This document shows positions 4,490 to 28,114 of a DNA stretch of 64,000 nucleotides, piece after piece. The stretch's first letter is position 1. Each line of letters opens with the position of its first letter. The translations under genes were made by a program, and so were the position numbers. The stretch comes from Miltoncostaea oceani (GTDB lineage Bacteria; Actinomycetota; Thermoleophilia; Miltoncostaeales; Miltoncostaeaceae). Under the pieces are notes generated by a model. It saw nothing but the letters and a program-made list of their open reading frames with translations, was not told the DNA's origin and ran no database searches. The DNA lies in NCBI RefSeq assembly GCF_018141545.1, contig NZ_CP064356.1:806001-870000 (forward strand), read 5' to 3'.

Positions 4490-4836
4490 CGGGCGCCCCC
4501 CGGCGGGGCCGGCGCGGCGTCGTCGTCCCACGCGGCGACCCACGCCTCGATCTCGCGGACGACGCGGGTGAGCGCCTGCCCCTTCTCGGTGAGGCGGTAC
4601 TCGACCGCGCCGCCGCCGAGCTCGCGGCGCTCCATGAGCCCCGCGGCCTCCAGCTCGCGGAGGCGCTCGGCCAGCAGGCGGGCCGAGAGCCCCTCCACCG
4701 ACCCGCGGATCTCGGTGAACCGGGCGGGGCCCTCCATGGCGGCCCGGATCACCGCCGCGCTCCAGCGGCGGCCGAGGAGCTCGGCCGCGCGCTGGTAGCG
4801 GTGGCAGACCGGAGTCAGGTGACGGCAGTCGTCCAT
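4486..4836 (-). CDS. HxlR family winged-helix transcriptional regulator
   Basis: 116 residues. The N-terminal Cys-bearing MDDCRHLTPVCHRY is followed by the family core LLGRRWSAAVIRAAMEGPARFTEI and LSARLLAERLRELEAAGLMERR, then the wing VEYRLTEKGQAL. HxlR proteins are dimeric activators or repressors that often sense electrophiles or redox state through cysteines; C4 and C11 could serve here. TAGTCT ends 7 bases before the ATG, with no Shine-Dalgarno site, implying a leaderless mRNA. It is the first gene of the HxlR-PPOX pair. Confidence 0.93.
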   Translation of the reverse strand: MDDCRHLTPVCHRYQRAAELLGRRWSAAVIRAAMEGPARFTEIRGSVEGLSARLLAERLRELEAAGLMERRELGGGAVEYRLTEKGQALTRVVREIEAWVAAWDDDAAPAPPGGAR

Positions 4837-4858
4837 CGTCCGGAGACTAACGCCGGCC

Positions 4859-7189
4859 CTACGCCGCGATCGACTCGTGGCGGTCGTGGGCGGGCTCGAG
4901 CGCGATGTCCAGGACCTCCCGGATCGTGAGGACCGGGTGCACGGTCACCTGCTCCAGGATCTCCGCCGGGACGTCGTCCAGGTCGCGGCGGTTGCGCTCC
5001 GGGATGATCACGTCCGTCAGCCCGGCCCGGTGGGCGGCGAGCACCTTCTGCTTCAGGCCGCCGATCGGGAGCACGCGGCCCTGCAGCGTCACCTCGCCGG
5101 TCATCCCGACGTTCGGCCGCACCGCGCGCCCGGAGGCGAGCGAGGCGATCGCGGTGATCATGGTGACGCCCGCCGACGGCCCGTCCTTCGGGATCGCGCC
5201 CGCCGGGACGTGCACGTGGACCTCCTTGCCCGCGAGGTCGGCGGGGTGGATGCCGACCTCCGTGCCGTGCGCCCGCGTCCACGAGAGCGCGATCCGCGCG
5301 GACTCGCGCATCACGTCGCCGAGCTGCCCGGTGAGCACGAGGCGCTCCCCGGGGCCGTCCGCCGTCATGGCGCTCGCCTCGACGAACAGCACGTCGCCGC
5401 CCGTCCCCGTGACCGCGAGGCCGGTCGCGACGCCCGGGATCGCCGTGCGCTCGGCCGCCTCGTGGTGGAACCGCGGCCGCCCGAGGGCGTCGTGGAGGTC
5501 GCCGGGTCCGATGGTGATCGGCCCCTCCGCCCCCTCCGCCACGCGGCGCGCCGCCTTGCGCAGCACCTTGCCGAGCTCCCGCTCGAGCGACCGCACCCCC
5601 GCCTCGCGGGTGTAGTCGCCGATGACGGCGCGCAGGGCGTCGTCGTCGACGGTGACCTCGTCCTCGCGCAGGCCGTTGCGCTCCACCTGGCGCGGCAGGA
5701 GGTAGCCGCGGGCGATCTGCAGCTTCTCGTCCTCGGTGTAGCCGTCGAGCGCGATGACCTCCATGCGGTCGAGCAGCGGGCCGGGGATGGTGTCGGCGAC
5801 GTTCGCGGTGGCGATGAACAGGACCTCGGAGAGGTCGAGCTCCACGTCGAGGTAGTGGTCGCGGAAGCTGTGGTTCTGGGCGGGGTCGAGCACCTCGAGC
5901 AGGGCCGACGACGGGTCGCCGCGCCAGTCGGCGCCGACCTTGTCGATCTCGTCGAGCATGATCACGGGGTTCATCGTCCCGGCCTCGCGGAGGGCCCGGA
6001 CGAGGCGGCCCGGCAGCGCGCCGACGTAGGTGCGCCGGTGCCCGCGGACCTCGGCCTCGTCGCGGATGCCGCCGAGGCTGATGCGCGCGAACTCGCGTCC
6101 GAGGGCCTTCGCCACGGACTGGCCGAGCGACGTCTTGCCGGTCCCCGGGGGGCCGACCAGCGTCAGGATGACGCCGCTGCGCCCCTCGTCCATCCCGCGC
6201 TCGCGGCGCAGGCGCCGGACGGACAGGTACTCGAGGATCCGCTCCTTGATGTCCTGCAGGCCGGCGTGGTCGGCGTCGAGCACCTCCCGCGCGCCGGCGA
6301 CGTCGAGCTCCTCCTCGGAGCGGGTGCCCCACGGCAGTGAGACCATCCACTCGAGGTAGGTCCGGATCATCCCGGCCTCGGCGCCCTCGGGCTGCCGCTC
6401 CAGGCGCGCGAGCTCGCGCTCGGCCTCCTTCCGGGCGGCGTCCGGCATGGCGGACGCGGCGATCCGCTCCGACCAGTCGTCGCCGTCCTCGGGGTCCTCG
6501 CCGAGCTCCTTGCGGATGGCCGAGAGCTGCCGGCGCAGCAGCATCTCGCGCTGGCTCTTGTCGAGGCCGTCGGTGACGTCCTCGCGGATGCGCCGGCGCA
6601 GGCCGGCGTCGGCGAGGCGCTCGCGCTGGGCGTCGATGGCGAGGCGCAGGCGCGCGACGACGTCGACGGTGCCGAGCAGTTCCGCCTTCGTGGTGAGGGG
6701 GATCTCCGGCGCGTAGCCGGCGGTGTCCGCGAGTCGGCCGGGGTGGCTGATGCCGGCGAGGAAGTGCGCGACGCGCACCCGGTCGCCGCGGAGGTCGGCG
6801 ACCTCCTCCACGACCGCGCGGTACTCGCGTGCCAGCGCGGCGGCCTCGGGGCCGGGGTCGTCCGGGTCGGGACGCTCGACGGCGCTGACACGAAGGCCGG
6901 ACTCGCCGCCGATCGCCGGGCCGAGCTCGGCGCGGTGGACCGCCTCGATGGCGACGCCGCGGGTGCCGTCGGGCAGCGTGACCTCACCGACGATGGTGGC
7001 CACCACGCCGTGTGACATGAACCGCCCGTCGATGCGCGGCACGAGCAGGAAGCGGCCGTCCACGGCGCCGTCGAGCGCCTCGGCCTGGTCGTCGGAGGTG
7101 ACGGGGAAGGTGACGCTCGTGCCGGGGAGCACCACGGCGTCGTCGAGGGGGAGGACCGGGAGGATGATGCTCTGGTCGTCCTGGTTCAT
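4859..7189 (-). CDS. lon: ATP-dependent protease Lon
   Basis: 776 residues, normal for Lon. The N-terminal LAN domain covers roughly 8-200 (starting ILPVLPLDDAVVLPG). The AAA+ domain has Walker A GPPGTGKT at 346-353 and Walker B VIMLDEIDK at 409-417. The C-terminal protease has the Ser-Lys dyad, S672 in KDGPSAG and K715 in GLKQK, 43 residues apart as in E. coli Lon. It degrades damaged and regulatory proteins in the cytoplasm. ATG at 7189 has CAGGAG about 10 bases upstream. The leader between 7190 and 7267 carries two spaced inverted repeats that probably bind its regulator. Confidence 0.97.
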   Translation of the reverse strand: MNQDDQSIILPVLPLDDAVVLPGTSVTFPVTSDDQAEALDGAVDGRFLLVPRIDGRFMSHGVVATIVGEVTLPDGTRGVAIEAVHRAELGPAIGGESGLRVSAVERPDPDDPGPEAAALAREYRAVVEEVADLRGDRVRVAHFLAGISHPGRLADTAGYAPEIPLTTKAELLGTVDVVARLRLAIDAQRERLADAGLRRRIREDVTDGLDKSQREMLLRRQLSAIRKELGEDPEDGDDWSERIAASAMPDAARKEAERELARLERQPEGAEAGMIRTYLEWMVSLPWGTRSEEELDVAGAREVLDADHAGLQDIKERILEYLSVRRLRRERGMDEGRSGVILTLVGPPGTGKTSLGQSVAKALGREFARISLGGIRDEAEVRGHRRTYVGALPGRLVRALREAGTMNPVIMLDEIDKVGADWRGDPSSALLEVLDPAQNHSFRDHYLDVELDLSEVLFIATANVADTIPGPLLDRMEVIALDGYTEDEKLQIARGYLLPRQVERNGLREDEVTVDDDALRAVIGDYTREAGVRSLERELGKVLRKAARRVAEGAEGPITIGPGDLHDALGRPRFHHEAAERTAIPGVATGLAVTGTGGDVLFVEASAMTADGPGERLVLTGQLGDVMRESARIALSWTRAHGTEVGIHPADLAGKEVHVHVPAGAIPKDGPSAGVTMITAIASLASGRAVRPNVGMTGEVTLQGRVLPIGGLKQKVLAAHRAGLTDVIIPERNRRDLDDVPAEILEQVTVHPVLTIREVLDIALEPAHDRHESIAA

Positions 7190-7217
7190 CGGGGCGGCTC
7201 CTGGGGTGTGGGGTGCG

Positions 7218-7267
7218 GTGGTTACTCGGTGTAACCACGGCCGGCCAGGAGATTACTACTCGTAACC
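7218..7267. promoter_or_regulatory. Twin inverted-repeat operator upstream of lon
   Basis: Site 1 (7218-7238) is GTGGTTAC-N5-GTAACCAC with perfect 8-base arms. Site 2 (7251-7267) is GATTAC-N5-GTAACC with one arm mismatch. Their centres are 31 bp apart, close to three helical turns, so two dimers would sit on the same face. The sites lie 29-78 bp before the lon ATG. They match neither the ClgR motif (CGC-N5-GCG core) nor the HspR HAIR motif known from other actinobacteria. Confidence 0.7.
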
Positions 7268-7344
7268 GCCGGGCGCCCCGGCCCCCCGCGCCACCGGGAG
7301 ACCCCGCCGCGCGGCGTCGTGGAGGGCCCCCGCCGGGGCACCGC

Positions 7345-7350
7345 TAGGAT
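7345..7350 (+). promoter_or_regulatory. -10 box TAGGAT, leaderless LysR-type gene
   Basis: TAGGAT is followed by exactly 6 bases and then the GTG at 7357. No Shine-Dalgarno site separates them. Transcription would start at or next to the start codon. Confidence 0.6.
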
Positions 7351-7356
7351 CCGCGC

Positions 7357-8277
7357 GTGGACCTCCGCCAGCTCCTGACGTTCCGCACCGTCGTCGACAA
7401 GGGGTCGTTCTCCCAGGCGGCGGAGGAGCTCGAGGTGTCGCAGCCCGCCGTGTCGTTCCAGATCCGGGCCCTCGAGGAGCGCCTCGGCCACCGGCTGCTC
7501 GACCGCAGCGGCCGCCGCGTCGCCGTGACCGAGGCCGGCGAGGTCGTCTATCGCTACGCCCGCCGCATGATCGGCCTCGAGGCGGAGCTCGAGCGGGAGA
7601 TGGGGGAGATCGGGACGCGCGTCGCCGGCCCCCTCGTGCTCGGCTCGTCCACCGGGCCCGGCGAGGTGCTGCTCCCCCGCCTGCTCGGCGCGTTCCACCG
7701 CGCCCACCCCGACGTCCGCGTCAGCCTCGCGGTGAGCGACACCCAGACGGTCTGCGAGCGCGTCCTCGACGACGAGCTGGAGCTCGGCGTCGTCGGCGCC
7801 GCCCGGCCCCAGCGCGGCCTCGTGTTCGAGCCGTTCGTCCGCGACGAGCTCGTCGCGATCGTCCCCCCCGCGCACCCCTTCGCGACCCGCGGGTCCGTGA
7901 CCCTGGAGGAGCTCGTCGCCGAGCCGATGCTGATCCAGCAGGAGGGCTCCGGGGTCCGTTCGGTCGTGGAGGCGGCGATGCGCGAGGGCGGCCTGCGGGA
8001 CCGCGACCTGCACGTCGCGATGGAGCTCGGCCTGCAGCAGTCGGTCAAGGCCGCCGTGCTCGACGGCTTCGGCATCACCGTCATCTCCAGCCTCGCCGTC
8101 GAGCGGGAGGTCGCCGAGGGGAGCCTCGTCGCGTTGCGCCTCGAGGGTCCCGGGCTCGAACGCCACTTCTTCGCGGTCCGCCACGCCGGCCGGACCCCGA
8201 AGCGCGTCACCGCGGCGTTCGTCGAGTTCGCCCGCGCGGAGCTCGGCGACATGGCCGCCACCGTGCCCCCCTCATAA
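7357..8277 (+). CDS. LysR family transcriptional regulator, CysB/CysL-like
   Basis: 306 residues. Winged helix at 1-60: MDLRQLLTFRTVVDKGSFSQAAEELEVSQPAVSFQIRALEERLG, split here only by its obvious family pattern. A linker helix and a periplasmic-binding-type effector domain follow (from about 90; LVLGSSTGPGEVLLPRLL). The effector pocket segment LLIQQEGSGVRS is like those of regulators sensing small anionic ligands. It stands 46 bp before, and in the same direction as, the flavoprotein-ComA-sat operon, so it is the likely regulator of sulfur assimilation genes. The GTG start is set by the TAGGAT box 6 bases upstream. Confidence 0.93.
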   Translation: MDLRQLLTFRTVVDKGSFSQAAEELEVSQPAVSFQIRALEERLGHRLLDRSGRRVAVTEAGEVVYRYARRMIGLEAELEREMGEIGTRVAGPLVLGSSTGPGEVLLPRLLGAFHRAHPDVRVSLAVSDTQTVCERVLDDELELGVVGAARPQRGLVFEPFVRDELVAIVPPAHPFATRGSVTLEELVAEPMLIQQEGSGVRSVVEAAMREGGLRDRDLHVAMELGLQQSVKAAVLDGFGITVISSLAVEREVAEGSLVALRLEGPGLERHFFAVRHAGRTPKRVTAAFVEFARAELGDMAATVPPS

Positions 8278-8287
8278 CGTCGCCTTA

Positions 8288-8317
8288 TTGGAAGCATCGG
8301 ACGGCGTGGAGTAGGGT
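8288..8317 (+). promoter_or_regulatory. Promoter of the flavoprotein-ComA-sat operon
   Basis: TTGGAA (8288-8293), 18-bp spacer, TAGGGT (8312-8317), then 6 bases to GTG at 8324. Both hexamers are present with acceptable spacing, and the transcript would be leaderless. Confidence 0.65.
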
Positions 8318-8323
8318 CGGGCG

Positions 8324-9550
8324 GTGACGAGCCTCTCGGATGCGCGTGCCGACGTGCTGGTCGTCGGATCGGGTGGCGCGGGGATGTCGGCGGCCGTGAG
8401 CGCCGCCGGAGCGGGCGCGTCGGTCCTCGTGACCACGAAGTCCGCCCTCGGCGCCGGCAACACCGGCAAGGCCCAGGGGGGCATCCAGGCGGCCATGGGC
8501 GACGACGACTCGACGGAGTCCCACTTCGAGGACACCTTCGCCGCCGGTCACCACGCCGCGCGGCCCGAGCTGGTGCGCCGCCTCGCCGACGGGGGGCCCG
8601 AGGCGATCGCGTGGCTCGAGTCCATCGGTGTCGCGTTCACCCGCGACGAGGGGCGCCTGCGCCTGCTGCGGTGCGGCGGCGCGACCCGCAAGCGGCTGCT
8701 GCAGGCCGGTGAGCGCACCGGCGCCGAGATGGTCAAGGCGCTGCGCGGCGCGGTCCGCGCGAGCGGCGCCGAGGTGTGGGAGTCCACGCGTCTCATCGAC
8801 CTCGCGCCCGACGGCGACGGCTGGGTCGCGACCGTCGCGCCCGGCGGCAACGGGGCGCGCCGCACCGTGCGCGCCGGGGCCGTCGTGCTCGCCGCGGGCG
8901 GCGGCCTGCGGGGCGAGGCCGAGGCGCTCGGCCTCGGCAGCACCAACCACCCCGACGCCACCCCCGAGGTCCTCCGCCTCGCGCTCGACCTGGGCGCCGA
9001 GGGCCGCGAGCTCGACTCGTGGCAACAGCACCCCACCGGCTCCGTCTGGCCGGAGGCGCTGTCCGGCTACGCCCTCCCCGAGACCACCCGCGCCTACGGG
9101 GCGACCCTCCACGACGCCGACGGCGAGCGCTTCGTCGACGAGCTCGCCCCGCGCGACGTCGTCGCCCAGGCGATCATCGACGCCGTCGAGCAGGGCCGCG
9201 GCGCGCTCGCGCCCGACGGCCGCGCCGGCGTCTGGCTCGACACGCCCGCCATCGACCGCGAGAACGGCGCCGGGTTCACCGCCGACCGCCTCGCGTACGT
9301 CCACAACCGCTACCGGAAGGCGGGGATCGACATCACACGAGAGCGCGTGCTGGTCTATCCGGTCCTGCACTACCGCAACGGCGGCCTCGCCATCGACGAG
9401 GACGCCGCGACGACCGTGCCCGGCGTGTTCGCCGCGGGTGAGATCGCCGGCGGGGTGCACGGCTCCAACCGCCTCATGGGCAACAGCCTCCTCGACACGG
9501 TCGTCTACGGGCGCCGGGCCGGCGCGAGCGCCGCGCGGGTGACCCGGTGA
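8324..9550 (+). CDS. FAD-dependent oxidoreductase of the fumarate reductase/succinate dehydrogenase flavoprotein family
   Basis: 408 residues. The FAD-binding dinucleotide motif [15 protein letters not shown] is at about 10-25, followed by [14 protein letters not shown]. The substrate-side segment [11 protein letters not shown] and the C-terminal FAD loop [28 protein letters not shown] are typical of the family. It lacks the C-terminal helical domain of L-aspartate oxidase and of SdhA/FrdA, so it is short for the family. It is the first gene of a tightly coupled operon with a phosphosulfolactate synthase homolog and ATP sulfurylase. An AprA-like or sulfur-linked redox role is therefore a reasonable inference. 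The electron acceptor and the substrate are unknown. Confidence 0.85.
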
Positions 9551-10374
9551 CCGCGGGCCCGGCACCGGCGCCGGAGACGCGGCCCGTGAGCGCCCCCGAG
9601 TTCCTCGACCTGCCGGGGCGCCCGCCGAAGCCGCGCCAGGTGGGCGTCACCCACGTCATCGACAAGGGCCTGTCGCTGCAGGCCGTCGAGGGGATCCTCG
9701 ACATGTCCGGCGACATGATCGACATCGTGAAGCTGGGCTGGGGGACGGCCTACGTCACCCGGACGCTCCGCGACAAGATCGCCCTCTACGAGAGCGCCGG
9801 CATCCCCGTCGTGCTCGGCGGGACGTTCTGGGAGGTCTGCGCCATCCAGAACAAGCTCGACGAGTGGCGCCGGTGGGTCACCGACCTCGGCCTCCGCCAC
9901 GTGGAGGTCTCGGACGGGACGATCACCGTCGCCCACGAGACGAAGCTGGAGCACATCCACAGCCTGTCGCAGGACTTCGTCGTCCTGAGCGAGGTCGGGT
10001 CGAAGGACCTGGCCACCGTCATCGCGCCGTACCGCTGGGTCGAGCTGATCGAGGCGGAGCTCCGCGCGGGCGCCTGGAAGGTCATCACCGAGGCCCGGGA
10101 GACCGGCACCGCCGGGATCTTCCGCGGCGACGGCGAGGTCCGGATGGGCCTCATCGACGAGATCGTCCACGCCATCGACCCGAACCGCCTGCTGTTCGAG
10201 GCCCCCCAGAAGGCCCAGCAGGTCTGGTTCATCCGCAAGTTCGGCCCCAACGTCAACCTGGGGAACATCCCACCCGACGAGGTGATACCGCTGGAGACCC
10301 TACGGCTCGGCCTTCGCGCCGACACACTGCTCGACCCCACCGCGATGGGCAACGTGGACGGAGCGGGCATTTGA
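9547..10374 (+). CDS. Phosphosulfolactate synthase family protein (ComA-like)
   Basis: 275 residues; the start GTG overlaps the preceding stop (GTGA). The sequence follows the ComA/PF02679 TIM-barrel pattern: GVTHVIDKG at about 33-41, [59 protein letters not shown] and [19 protein letters not shown]. Characterised ComA adds sulfite to phosphoenolpyruvate, giving (2R)-phospho-3-sulfolactate for coenzyme M in methanogens; a bacterial homolog (YitD) is linked to sulfolactate in Bacillus spores. No ComB or ComC gene lies nearby. The reaction in this organism is inferred from family and neighbours. Confidence 0.9.
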
Positions 10375-25446: not shown

Positions 25447-25519
25447 GGGGGATTAGCTCAGCTGGGAGAGCGCCGCCTTTGCAAGGCGGAGGTCGTCGGT
25501 TCGATCCCGTCATCCTCCA
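25447..25519 (+). tRNA. tRNA-Ala (anticodon TGC)
   Basis: 73 nt. The acceptor stem GGGGGAT pairs with ATCCTCC with one G-T. The D arm is GCTC-AGCTGGGA-GAGC; the anticodon arm CCGCC-TTTGCAA-GGCGG gives TGC; the T loop is TTCGATC. The discriminator base is A, and CCA is not encoded. TACCGT about 14 bases upstream can act as -10. The 3' 35 bases are repeated at 28080-28114, so this gene is the integration site of a small island. Confidence 0.95.
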
Positions 25520-25538
25520 CTACCACGGCGACGGTGAG

Positions 25539-25558
25539 AGCCCCGCTCCGGCGGGCCT
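25539..25558 (+). terminator. Hairpin after tRNA-Ala
   Basis: AGCCCCGC-TCCG-GCGGGCCT, 7 of 8 pairs, followed by TTT. It lies inside the island, so the element supplies the terminator of its host tRNA. Confidence 0.5.
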
Positions 25559-25620
25559 TTCACATGTCCGCGCGCGCCACACGGCGGAGGCGCGCAGACG
25601 ACGACATCCACCAGCAGGTG

Positions 25621-25639
25621 GTGGCCACGTGGTGGCCAC
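25621..25639. repeat. Left arm-type repeat GTGGCCACGTGGTGGCCAC
   Basis: Two GTGGCCAC octamers, each self-complementary, one helical turn (11 bp) apart. It lies 101 bp inside the left core repeat. The partner at 28003-28021 differs at only two bases (C to T in each octamer). Confidence 0.75.
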
Positions 25640-25711
25640 CCTCGTTCGCCGGGGGGCGCCGCCCTGAGCTCGGCAGGGGGGCAGGGGGTGGGGAGGCCGC
25701 GCATCGAGACA

Positions 25712-25850
25712 ATGAGCGTGAAGGACGCCGCGTCCGCTCTCGGCATCGTGCGGAATAGCTGCCACCCGGCCATCCGCGCAGCGAAGTGCCTGCGGTGCGC
25801 ATCGGTGGGCGGCTCCTCGTTCCGCGCGCGGCGCTGACGCGGCTCCTAAC
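25712..25850 (+). pseudogene. Frameshifted excisionase / MerR-like helix-turn-helix relic
   Basis: Frame 1 from ATG 25712 reads MSVKDAASALGIVRNSC and then HPAIRAAK. A shift near 25786 continues as VPAVRIGGRLLVPRAALTRLL. Joined, they give the standard excisionase/HTH_17 pattern (xVKEAAxxLGISRNSAYxAIRAGxxPAVRIGxRLLVPRAALxxLL) found beside integrases in actinobacterial elements. Either a base was lost or two were gained, so no full protein is made. GGGAGG lies 15 bases before the ATG. Confidence 0.75.
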
Positions 25851-26002
25851 CCCCGCATGGTGCGAGCCAACCTCGGGCCGCCGGCCGGTGCGGCCGCCCG
25901 GCCCGGGGGCTCTCGGCGCGCGAAGCCGCCTCCTATACGTTCGTCGAGCTGACATCCGTGGCGTGGTCGCGGAGGATCGCTTCGCCCGCGGTGAGGCTCG
26001 TT

Positions 26003-27901
26003 ATGCGCCTTGGAGAGGAGCGTGCTGGATTGACTCCGAAGCGTCACGAGTCGAGTTCGGTCTGGCCGAGGCCCGTCACTTTCGGCCTCCTGGCAGCCGT
26101 CGTTGGCAGCGCTTTCGTCGCTGGCCAAGCCAGCGCAGACCCTTGGTCGACCTTTCCCATGGGCAACGGTTGGGCGAACCCATCGGGCAACAAAGCCTTC
26201 CACAGCTGGGACTTCGGTCGAGTTGGTTGCGGGACCGGACACTATTTCGGCGGTATCGCGCACCTGGGCACTGACTCCCAGTCCAACAATGTCGGGGACC
26301 CTGTGCACGCCATCGCGGATGGCACCGTCGCGCAGGTCGTCAATCCTTGGGACCACGGCGCCGCGGTCGGGATCGAGCATCGGGCGTCCGATGCGAGCCG
26401 CTTCGTGGCGCTCTATGGCCATGTGGTTCCCCGGGTGAAGCCAGGAGACCGCGTCAGGCGGGGCCAGGTCATCGCCAAGATCCACGAGTACGACGCTGAC
26501 CCTGCGACGCCGGGCTACGAGCCAGCCCAGCATCTGCATCTCGGTATTCGACCACTCCGCGGCGGCGAGCGCGGTTCCGCGGTTGCTCTTCGTGGACGAA
26601 CCTTGTGCGCGACGTACGACGCGTACGGCTTAGTCGAGCCGATCGCATTCCTTCGGGCCCGGAAGCCGGGAAGCGCCGGAAGCTCGCCTCGGGGCAAGCT
26701 CGACCGGGTCCGGGGGCTGCAGGGCAACCGCATCCGCGTCCAGGGTTGGGCATTCGATCCGGACAACGCCGCGAAGCCTGTCAAGGTCGTGGCGTGGATC
26801 GATGGGAGGCCCGGGCAGAAAGGCGCCCGGCGAGTGGATCTCGGCTACGCCACCCTCAAGAGGGGGGACGTCGAGCGAGCCTTCAGGAAGAAGTTCCCCG
26901 GGGTCGGCAACCGACACGGCTTCGACCGCACCATCGACAAGGTGTCTCCGGGGAGCCACACGGTTCGTGTGTATGCGGTGAATCGTTTCAAGGGTGGCGG
27001 CCTCGCCCGGCTTGGCGGCCGGACGATCCGGGTCCCTAAGCCGCCGACCGGGAGGTGGATCGCGTATGACACGACGCTGGGGATCCACCTCGTCCGGCCC
27101 GACGGCTCACAGCGCCGCATGCTCGTCAACCAGCGAGGGGCTCGAAGCCCGAGCTGGTCGAGGGACGGCAAGTGGGTCGCGTTCGAGTATCGGCCCGACA
27201 AGTTCGGCAACATCACCTCCTCGACGACGGTGCACGTGGTTCGGGCTGACGGACGCCTGCGGCGCAAGGTCGCGCGAGGGCACACCCCCGCCTGGAGCCT
27301 CGACGGCCGAGAGGTCTACTACCTGCCCAGAAACCTTGATCGAACGGCCGGAGTGGTCCTTGCGGTCAACGTGAAGACGGGCAAGATTCGCCGGACGAAG
27401 TTCGTAACGACGGCGCGCTCGCACGACGGCTCCCAGATGGCGCACTTCGGTGGTGGGCCCTGCCCGCCCCCTCAGCAGCCCGGGTACGAGAACATTTGCG
27501 ACGCGCCCTTCTGGCTCCACATCGTTTCGACCCGCGACGGTCGGGAGCAGACGATTCGGGTGCCACGACGAAGCGCGGACCCGCTTCCGCTCTCGTGGTC
27601 ACCTTCGGGTGAAGTTCTCTACAACTGCGAGGGCGCTGCAGCCTCACGGTGGCGTGACCTGTGCGCGTACGACACCGTTCGCCGGCGGTTCACTCATTTC
27701 AGAGGCCCCAGCCAGACTGCTGAGATGGCCGGTTCGTTCTCCCCGGACGGCTCCCAGATCGCGGTCGCCGCGCTCGAGGGCCTCTACGTGAGACCTCGCT
27801 CGCGCAACGGCGTGAGATGGCTTGTTCGAAATCCGGCAGTCATCGCGGATCCGGTTGCTGGTCGCTCCAACTCGCCCTTCTCTCCCGCCTGGCAGCCATG
27901 A
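26003..27901 (+). CDS. Exported M23-family peptidase with WAFDPD-type beta domain and TolB-like propeller
   Basis: 632 residues from ATG 26003; a later TTG at 26030 with GGAGAGGAG 9 bases upstream is an equally good start. The signal peptide ends in GQASA (about 45). The M23 domain has H87-x3-D91 (AHLGTD) and H177-x-H179 (HLH), the zinc-ligand motifs of lysostaphin/LytM-type endopeptidases, plus PVHAIADGTV. It is followed by a beta domain (VQGWAFDPDNA, RADVxR-like GDVERAF, NRHGFDRTI) and four or more PD40-like blades (SPSWSRDGKWVAFE, TPAWSLDGREVYY, SWSPSGEVLY, SFSPDGSQIAVAA). It is the only intact cargo of the island and differs from neighbours in codon use. Confidence 0.88.
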   Translation: MRLGEERAGLTPKRHESSSVWPRPVTFGLLAAVVGSAFVAGQASADPWSTFPMGNGWANPSGNKAFHSWDFGRVGCGTGHYFGGIAHLGTDSQSNNVGDPVHAIADGTVAQVVNPWDHGAAVGIEHRASDASRFVALYGHVVPRVKPGDRVRRGQVIAKIHEYDADPATPGYEPAQHLHLGIRPLRGGERGSAVALRGRTLCATYDAYGLVEPIAFLRARKPGSAGSSPRGKLDRVRGLQGNRIRVQGWAFDPDNAAKPVKVVAWIDGRPGQKGARRVDLGYATLKRGDVERAFRKKFPGVGNRHGFDRTIDKVSPGSHTVRVYAVNRFKGGGLARLGGRTIRVPKPPTGRWIAYDTTLGIHLVRPDGSQRRMLVNQRGARSPSWSRDGKWVAFEYRPDKFGNITSSTTVHVVRADGRLRRKVARGHTPAWSLDGREVYYLPRNLDRTAGVVLAVNVKTGKIRRTKFVTTARSHDGSQMAHFGGGPCPPPQQPGYENICDAPFWLHIVSTRDGREQTIRVPRRSADPLPLSWSPSGEVLYNCEGAAASRWRDLCAYDTVRRRFTHFRGPSQTAEMAGSFSPDGSQIAVAALEGLYVRPRSRNGVRWLVRNPAVIADPVAGRSNSPFSPAWQP

Positions 27902-28002
27902 TCTCGCTCCCCACCTGTGGGCAGGACTATCCGTCGCTCTGTGCAGTTGGGCCCTCATGGTCGCGGGCAAGAGTCTCAGCACGGTGCAGTCACGGAGCAG
28001 TG

Positions 28003-28021
28003 GTGGTCACGTGGTGGTCAC
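28003..28021. repeat. Right arm-type repeat GTGGTCACGTGGTGGTCAC
   Basis: Same architecture as 25621-25639, 58 bp inside the right core repeat. Position at both island ends fits binding sites for an integrase arm domain or excision factor. Confidence 0.75.
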
Positions 28022-28079
28022 GTTGGGGACCACCCCGACGAACACCCTGCTGAAGGAGAACCTCCACCCGCCTTCGCAC

Positions 28080-28114
28080 GGCGGAGGTCGTCGGTTCGAT
28101 CCCGTCATCCTCCA
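28080..28114. repeat. attR-type copy of the tRNA-Ala 3' end
   Basis: 35 bp identical to 25485-25519. The 17 bases before it (CCGCCTTCGCACGGCGG, overlapping the repeat) match the tRNA anticodon arm except at two positions, so the ancestral crossover region may be longer than the perfect repeat. The 5' half of a tRNA is missing, so this is not a second tRNA gene. Confidence 0.9.

Follow-up and report, generated by a model that had tools for sequence, protein, structure and literature searches.

An integrase-less insert with both integration ends preserved at a tRNA-Ala(TGC) gene of Miltoncostaea oceani

Results

A 2.6-kb stretch at the tRNA-Ala gene in the 64,000-nucleotide stretch of Miltoncostaea oceani DNA analyzed here (the window) is foreign DNA that retains both integration ends intact and lacks the enzyme to move it. 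This insert is probably a decayed integrative element without an integrase, namely a deletion remnant of a tRNA-targeting element, resembling the cis-mobilizable elements (CIMEs; Pavlovic et al. 2004; defined in PMC5704250).

The target gene, tRNA-Ala(TGC), was located by ARAGORN at 25447-25520 on the forward strand, as are all features of the insert described below, and its 3' part constitutes the attL core. A repeat search identified this core as the left copy of a 47-bp repeat (25473-25519, with an exact part of 35 bp at 25485-25519) and the copied 3' end of the tRNA-Ala as attR (28068-28114, with the exact 35 bp at 28080-28114). The two copies form a direct repeat with 45 of 47 positions identical (96%), the last 35 bp being exact. 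The insert of 2,559 bp lies directly 3' of the tRNA. A sequence-only reading of this DNA had described an exact 35-bp copy of the tRNA 3' end closing an insert of different composition. The copy was confirmed as part of the longer repeat, and the difference in composition is real: the G+C content of the insert (67.8%) was lower than that of any of 562 equally long pieces taken from elsewhere in the window (minimum 71.7%). The other matches of the 47-bp repeat in the 4.54-Mb genome were tRNA genes and one partial copy of 96% identity (49 bp, C1:205341).

Repeat search, motif scan and shuffles revealed a pair of tandem repeats inside each end of the insert. The left pair (twice GTGGTGGCCAC, 25618-25639) is located 97 bp inside the tRNA end and the right pair (twice GTGGTGGTCAC, 28000-28021) 58 bp inside the exact right copy. 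Each is an exact tandem of an 11-bp unit, with the same orientation at both ends. An exact tandem of 10-13 bp at both ends occurred in none of 5,000 Markov shuffles, and at the left end alone in seven of 5,000. Moreover, the left and right pairs match each other at 20 of 22 positions, more than in any of 1,000 shuffles (maximum 18). These sites had previously been described as paired 19-bp repeats; their presence inside both ends stood, whereas the 19-bp description was better replaced by tandem 11-mers (22 bp) with units spaced 11 bp apart. The 19-bp pattern, searched with no mismatches, had no further occurrence in the 4.54-Mb genome. The tandem pairs are best read as putative arm sites of an integrase, because three integrase-bearing tRNA islands of the same genome share this layout. 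Comparison with elements of like layout thus supports the earlier suggestion of arm-type sites, and the repeats are assigned to an integrase by close analogy since no intact element with identical arms and an integrase was found.

These three islands are located at tRNA-Arg(CCT) (57 kb, C1:205065-262306), tRNA-Gly(GCC) (10 kb, C1:1149869-1160005) and tRNA-Cys(GCA) (3.5 kb, C1:1166790-1170423). The first has AGACGTTGCGGG-type pairs at both ends, the second CATCCCAC pairs and the third TGTCGCGCA pairs, so that each has an end layout like that of the tRNA-Ala insert with its own, different arm unit. The partial copy of the tRNA-Ala 3' end mentioned above (C1:205341-205389; L003 1501-1549) lies inside the tRNA-Arg(CCT) island, approximately 105 bp before a tandem GGTCCTGAGATGGTCCTGA. 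It possibly represents an attachment site that belonged to another tRNA-Ala element and was captured.

The gene content of the insert was analyzed by open reading frames and profile matches. Between the left arm pair and the peptidase gene lies the remnant of an excisionase-like (HTH_17) gene (25712-25860) that is split over two frames, the first part beginning at 25712 and the second ending at 25860. Joined as one peptide, the two parts matched HTH_17 (1.2e-5, 25.9 bits, cut-off 27) and the excisionase family TIGR01764 (3.1e-4, 21.1 bits, cut-off 28.8), in both cases slightly under the curated cut-offs; with this qualification, the frameshifted excisionase-like gene proposed near the left end is supported. 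The only intact cargo gene (25958-27901) encodes an M23 (LytM-type) peptidase (Peptidase_M23, 1.3e-11) with PD40 propeller repeats (1.6e-8). HxxxD and HxH motifs can be read directly from its sequence, as can what appears to be a signal peptide at the N terminus, and the lone cargo is thus, as had been proposed, a peptidase that is predicted to be exported. In the searched genomes of relatives, plasmids and phages, this protein had no more than domain-level matches. The insert contained no integrase or trace of one (best E 0.08), confirming the earlier observation, and the same queries detected the integrases of the tRNA-Cys element and of L082 as positive controls.

By its ends and gene content, the insert agrees with the definition of a CIME on two points: it is flanked by attL and attR direct repeats at the integration site and has neither integrase nor transfer genes. 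As in the actinomycete integrative and conjugative elements of the pSAM2 type (AICEs; PMC3218068), it occupies a tRNA 3' end with a duplicated core. Since int, rep and tra (FtsK-type) genes are absent, as is an integrase of its own for the autonomous integration of an IME, the insert is neither an AICE nor an IME.

The tRNA-Ala(TGC) site was compared across relatives. Of 42 family genomes, 30, representing every genus, were found to contain the gene that lies upstream of the tRNA, and this gene adjoins tRNA-Ala(TGC) in most of the loci read. The congener G001 carries 5.5 kb after the same tRNA, closed by the same 35-bp core. This island (G001:C187, L078, reverse strand, about 4718-10190 in that orientation) encodes a response regulator, a histidine kinase, an FtsX permease and an ABC ATPase; no integrase was seen in it, and no arm pairs were detectable at its ends. 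The congener G002 has the tRNA without the repeat and a right flank 93% identical to that of G001, and represents the empty counterpart of the G001 island. A third congener, G003, has another right flank. In the family member G022, 11-bp tandem repeats come after this tRNA, together with a tyrosine integrase encoded in two overlapping frames and a gene of the FtsK type. An empty site in relatives was found for the G001 island; for the insertion in the window no exact empty counterpart was found, and the right flanks of the three congeners differ from that of the window. Since the G001 island, the empty G002 site and the G022 integrase and FtsK-type gene share this tRNA, tRNA-Ala(TGC) is a hotspot used by integrase-bearing and integrase-free elements in the family. 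The integrase-less islands at this site may not all have arisen in one way, because the G001 island lacks detectable arm pairs.

When 84,980 species genomes were scanned with GTGGTGRYCACGTGGTGRYCAC, four loci were obtained. The only other exact GTGGTGGTCAC pair among these genomes was found in an actinobacterial MAG (G066), where about 120-130 bp separate it from the copied tRNA-Lys end that follows; on another contig of this MAG, GTGGTGGGCAC occurs twice in the same position by a tRNA-Lys tail. The two contigs (pairs at L104 7898-7919 and L106 4380-4401) thus carry a near-identical pair and tRNA-Lys tail, which suggests that two elements belonging to a single family are present; a third contig carries the tRNA-Lys(CTT) gene. 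By a rough estimate, a random site would lie that close to a tRNA end in well under 1% of cases. Within the stretches examined, the recombinase loci of this MAG had no such arms. The Saccharothrix and Streptomyces loci of the scan were rejected: no copied tRNA end was seen, they appeared palindrome-like by eye and two stand beside regulator genes.

Relaxed arm patterns (2 mismatches) were searched in about 400 genomes of the class and about 400 of the phylum, the two sets partly overlapping. Among the loci checked, a copied tRNA end stood beside the pattern only at L127, and the rest were taken as chance. In a genome of the same class, a similar pair (twice GTGGTAGCCAC) separates a 440-aa tyrosine integrase from a copied tRNA end and is oriented the opposite way; this tRNA end is Glu-like as judged by eye. 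At L134 (15506-17021; G373:C27), a tyrosine integrase adjoins GTGGCTACCAC tandem pairs and a copied tRNA end, and it is a candidate relative of the integrase that would read the arms of the window.

Discussion

We infer the binding of the repeats by an integrase, the history of loss and any residual mobility of the insert as follows. An element with its own tyrosine integrase and excisionase would have integrated by recombination of its attP with the 3' end of tRNA-Ala(TGC); the tRNA would have stayed intact, and attL (25485-25519) and attR (28080-28114) would have resulted. Its integrase would have bound both the core within the tRNA end and the 11-bp arm pairs (25618-25639 and 28000-28021). 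Loss of the integrase and of any genes for replication or transfer, and a frameshift in the excisionase-like gene, would later have left the ends and one M23 peptidase gene. A matching integrase would require ends such as these, and in principle the remnant could be moved by an incoming integrase that recognizes its arms and core, or through accretion with an element encoding such an enzyme. Such a derivation of a CIME from an ICE or IME by decay is consistent with the broken excisionase-like gene and the arms; an intact parent was not found. The intact peptidase reading frame, which a pure relic need not show, argues against a remnant. Loss by deletion and assembly without an integrase from the start are both compatible with the data, which do not distinguish them.

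The sequence-only reading had favored mobilization by an integrase encoded elsewhere. A functional non-autonomous element of this kind, whose regular movement would depend on a helper recognizing its arms and core in trans, could explain why both attachment ends and both arm pairs are preserved though the integrase is missing, why the cargo reading frame is intact and why an island without an integrase is found at this 35-bp core in a congener as well. The congener's island, however, carries other cargo and no such arms, and the insert is present in a single copy in the genome. The broken excisionase-like gene is no less compatible with a remnant than with a mobilizable element. Moreover, the search for a tyrosine recombinase element with the same arms revealed no integrase-bearing one: none of the ten tyrosine-recombinase matches of this genome had the arms of the window nearby, the arm sequences were absent from the viral-contig collection, and exact arms with an integrase were found in none of the sampled class and phylum genomes. 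Because none of the ten matches lies near such arms, no helper integrase is evident in the assembly as far as arm matching tells, and cross-recognition by a resident enzyme is possible. These results do not support mobilization from elsewhere, and regular movement in trans is unlikely. It is improbable, too, that integrases of passing elements still move the insert in trans as a minimal element made up of the core, the two arm pairs and a single gene for a cell-wall peptidase, and that tRNA-Ala(TGC) thereby serves the genus as a slot for exchangeable cargo.

The M23 domain shows weak similarity to phage endolysins, as would be expected if the insert were a degenerate prophage or phage satellite and the M23 protein its lysin. 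This similarity is limited to the M23 domain (15% of the protein), the protein has an apparent signal peptide and a long propeller region, and the insert contains no other phage gene, which makes such an origin very improbable. Finally, the repeat is the 3' part of a tRNA and could have originated from a tandem duplication of tRNA-Ala with decay of the second copy and ordinary genes in between. Given that the exact copy starts at the same base in the window and in the G001 island, that the composition of the insert differs and that arm pairs lie inside both ends, there is hardly any likelihood of this.

Read as a decayed integrative element, the insert is a small and clear-cut case, of an already known kind, in which an element has been reduced to the ends used for recombination. 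The three integrase islands with the same end architecture in the same genome serve as internal controls, and empty, integrase-free and integrase-bearing states of the tRNA-Ala site are all represented in relatives. Because the GTGGTGGNCAC unit recurs next to copied tRNA ends in another actinobacterial genome, the integrase that would read this unit can be searched for.

Among known systems, the small tRNA-Cys element of the same genome resembles the insert in its exact tRNA-end copy, in the repeated arm units inside both ends and in size, but it has its own integrase, a different tRNA and a different arm sequence. With AICEs the insert shares its position in a tRNA 3' end and an excisionase-family gene, and genes for an integrase and an FtsK-type protein lie at this tRNA-Ala in a family member, whereas the insert itself lacks int, rep and tra genes. 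Like CIMEs, it keeps attL and attR without integration or transfer genes at a tRNA site where integrase-bearing elements also land; unlike them, it has no accreted integrase-bearing tandem partner, and cis-mobilization of the CIME type is putative here.
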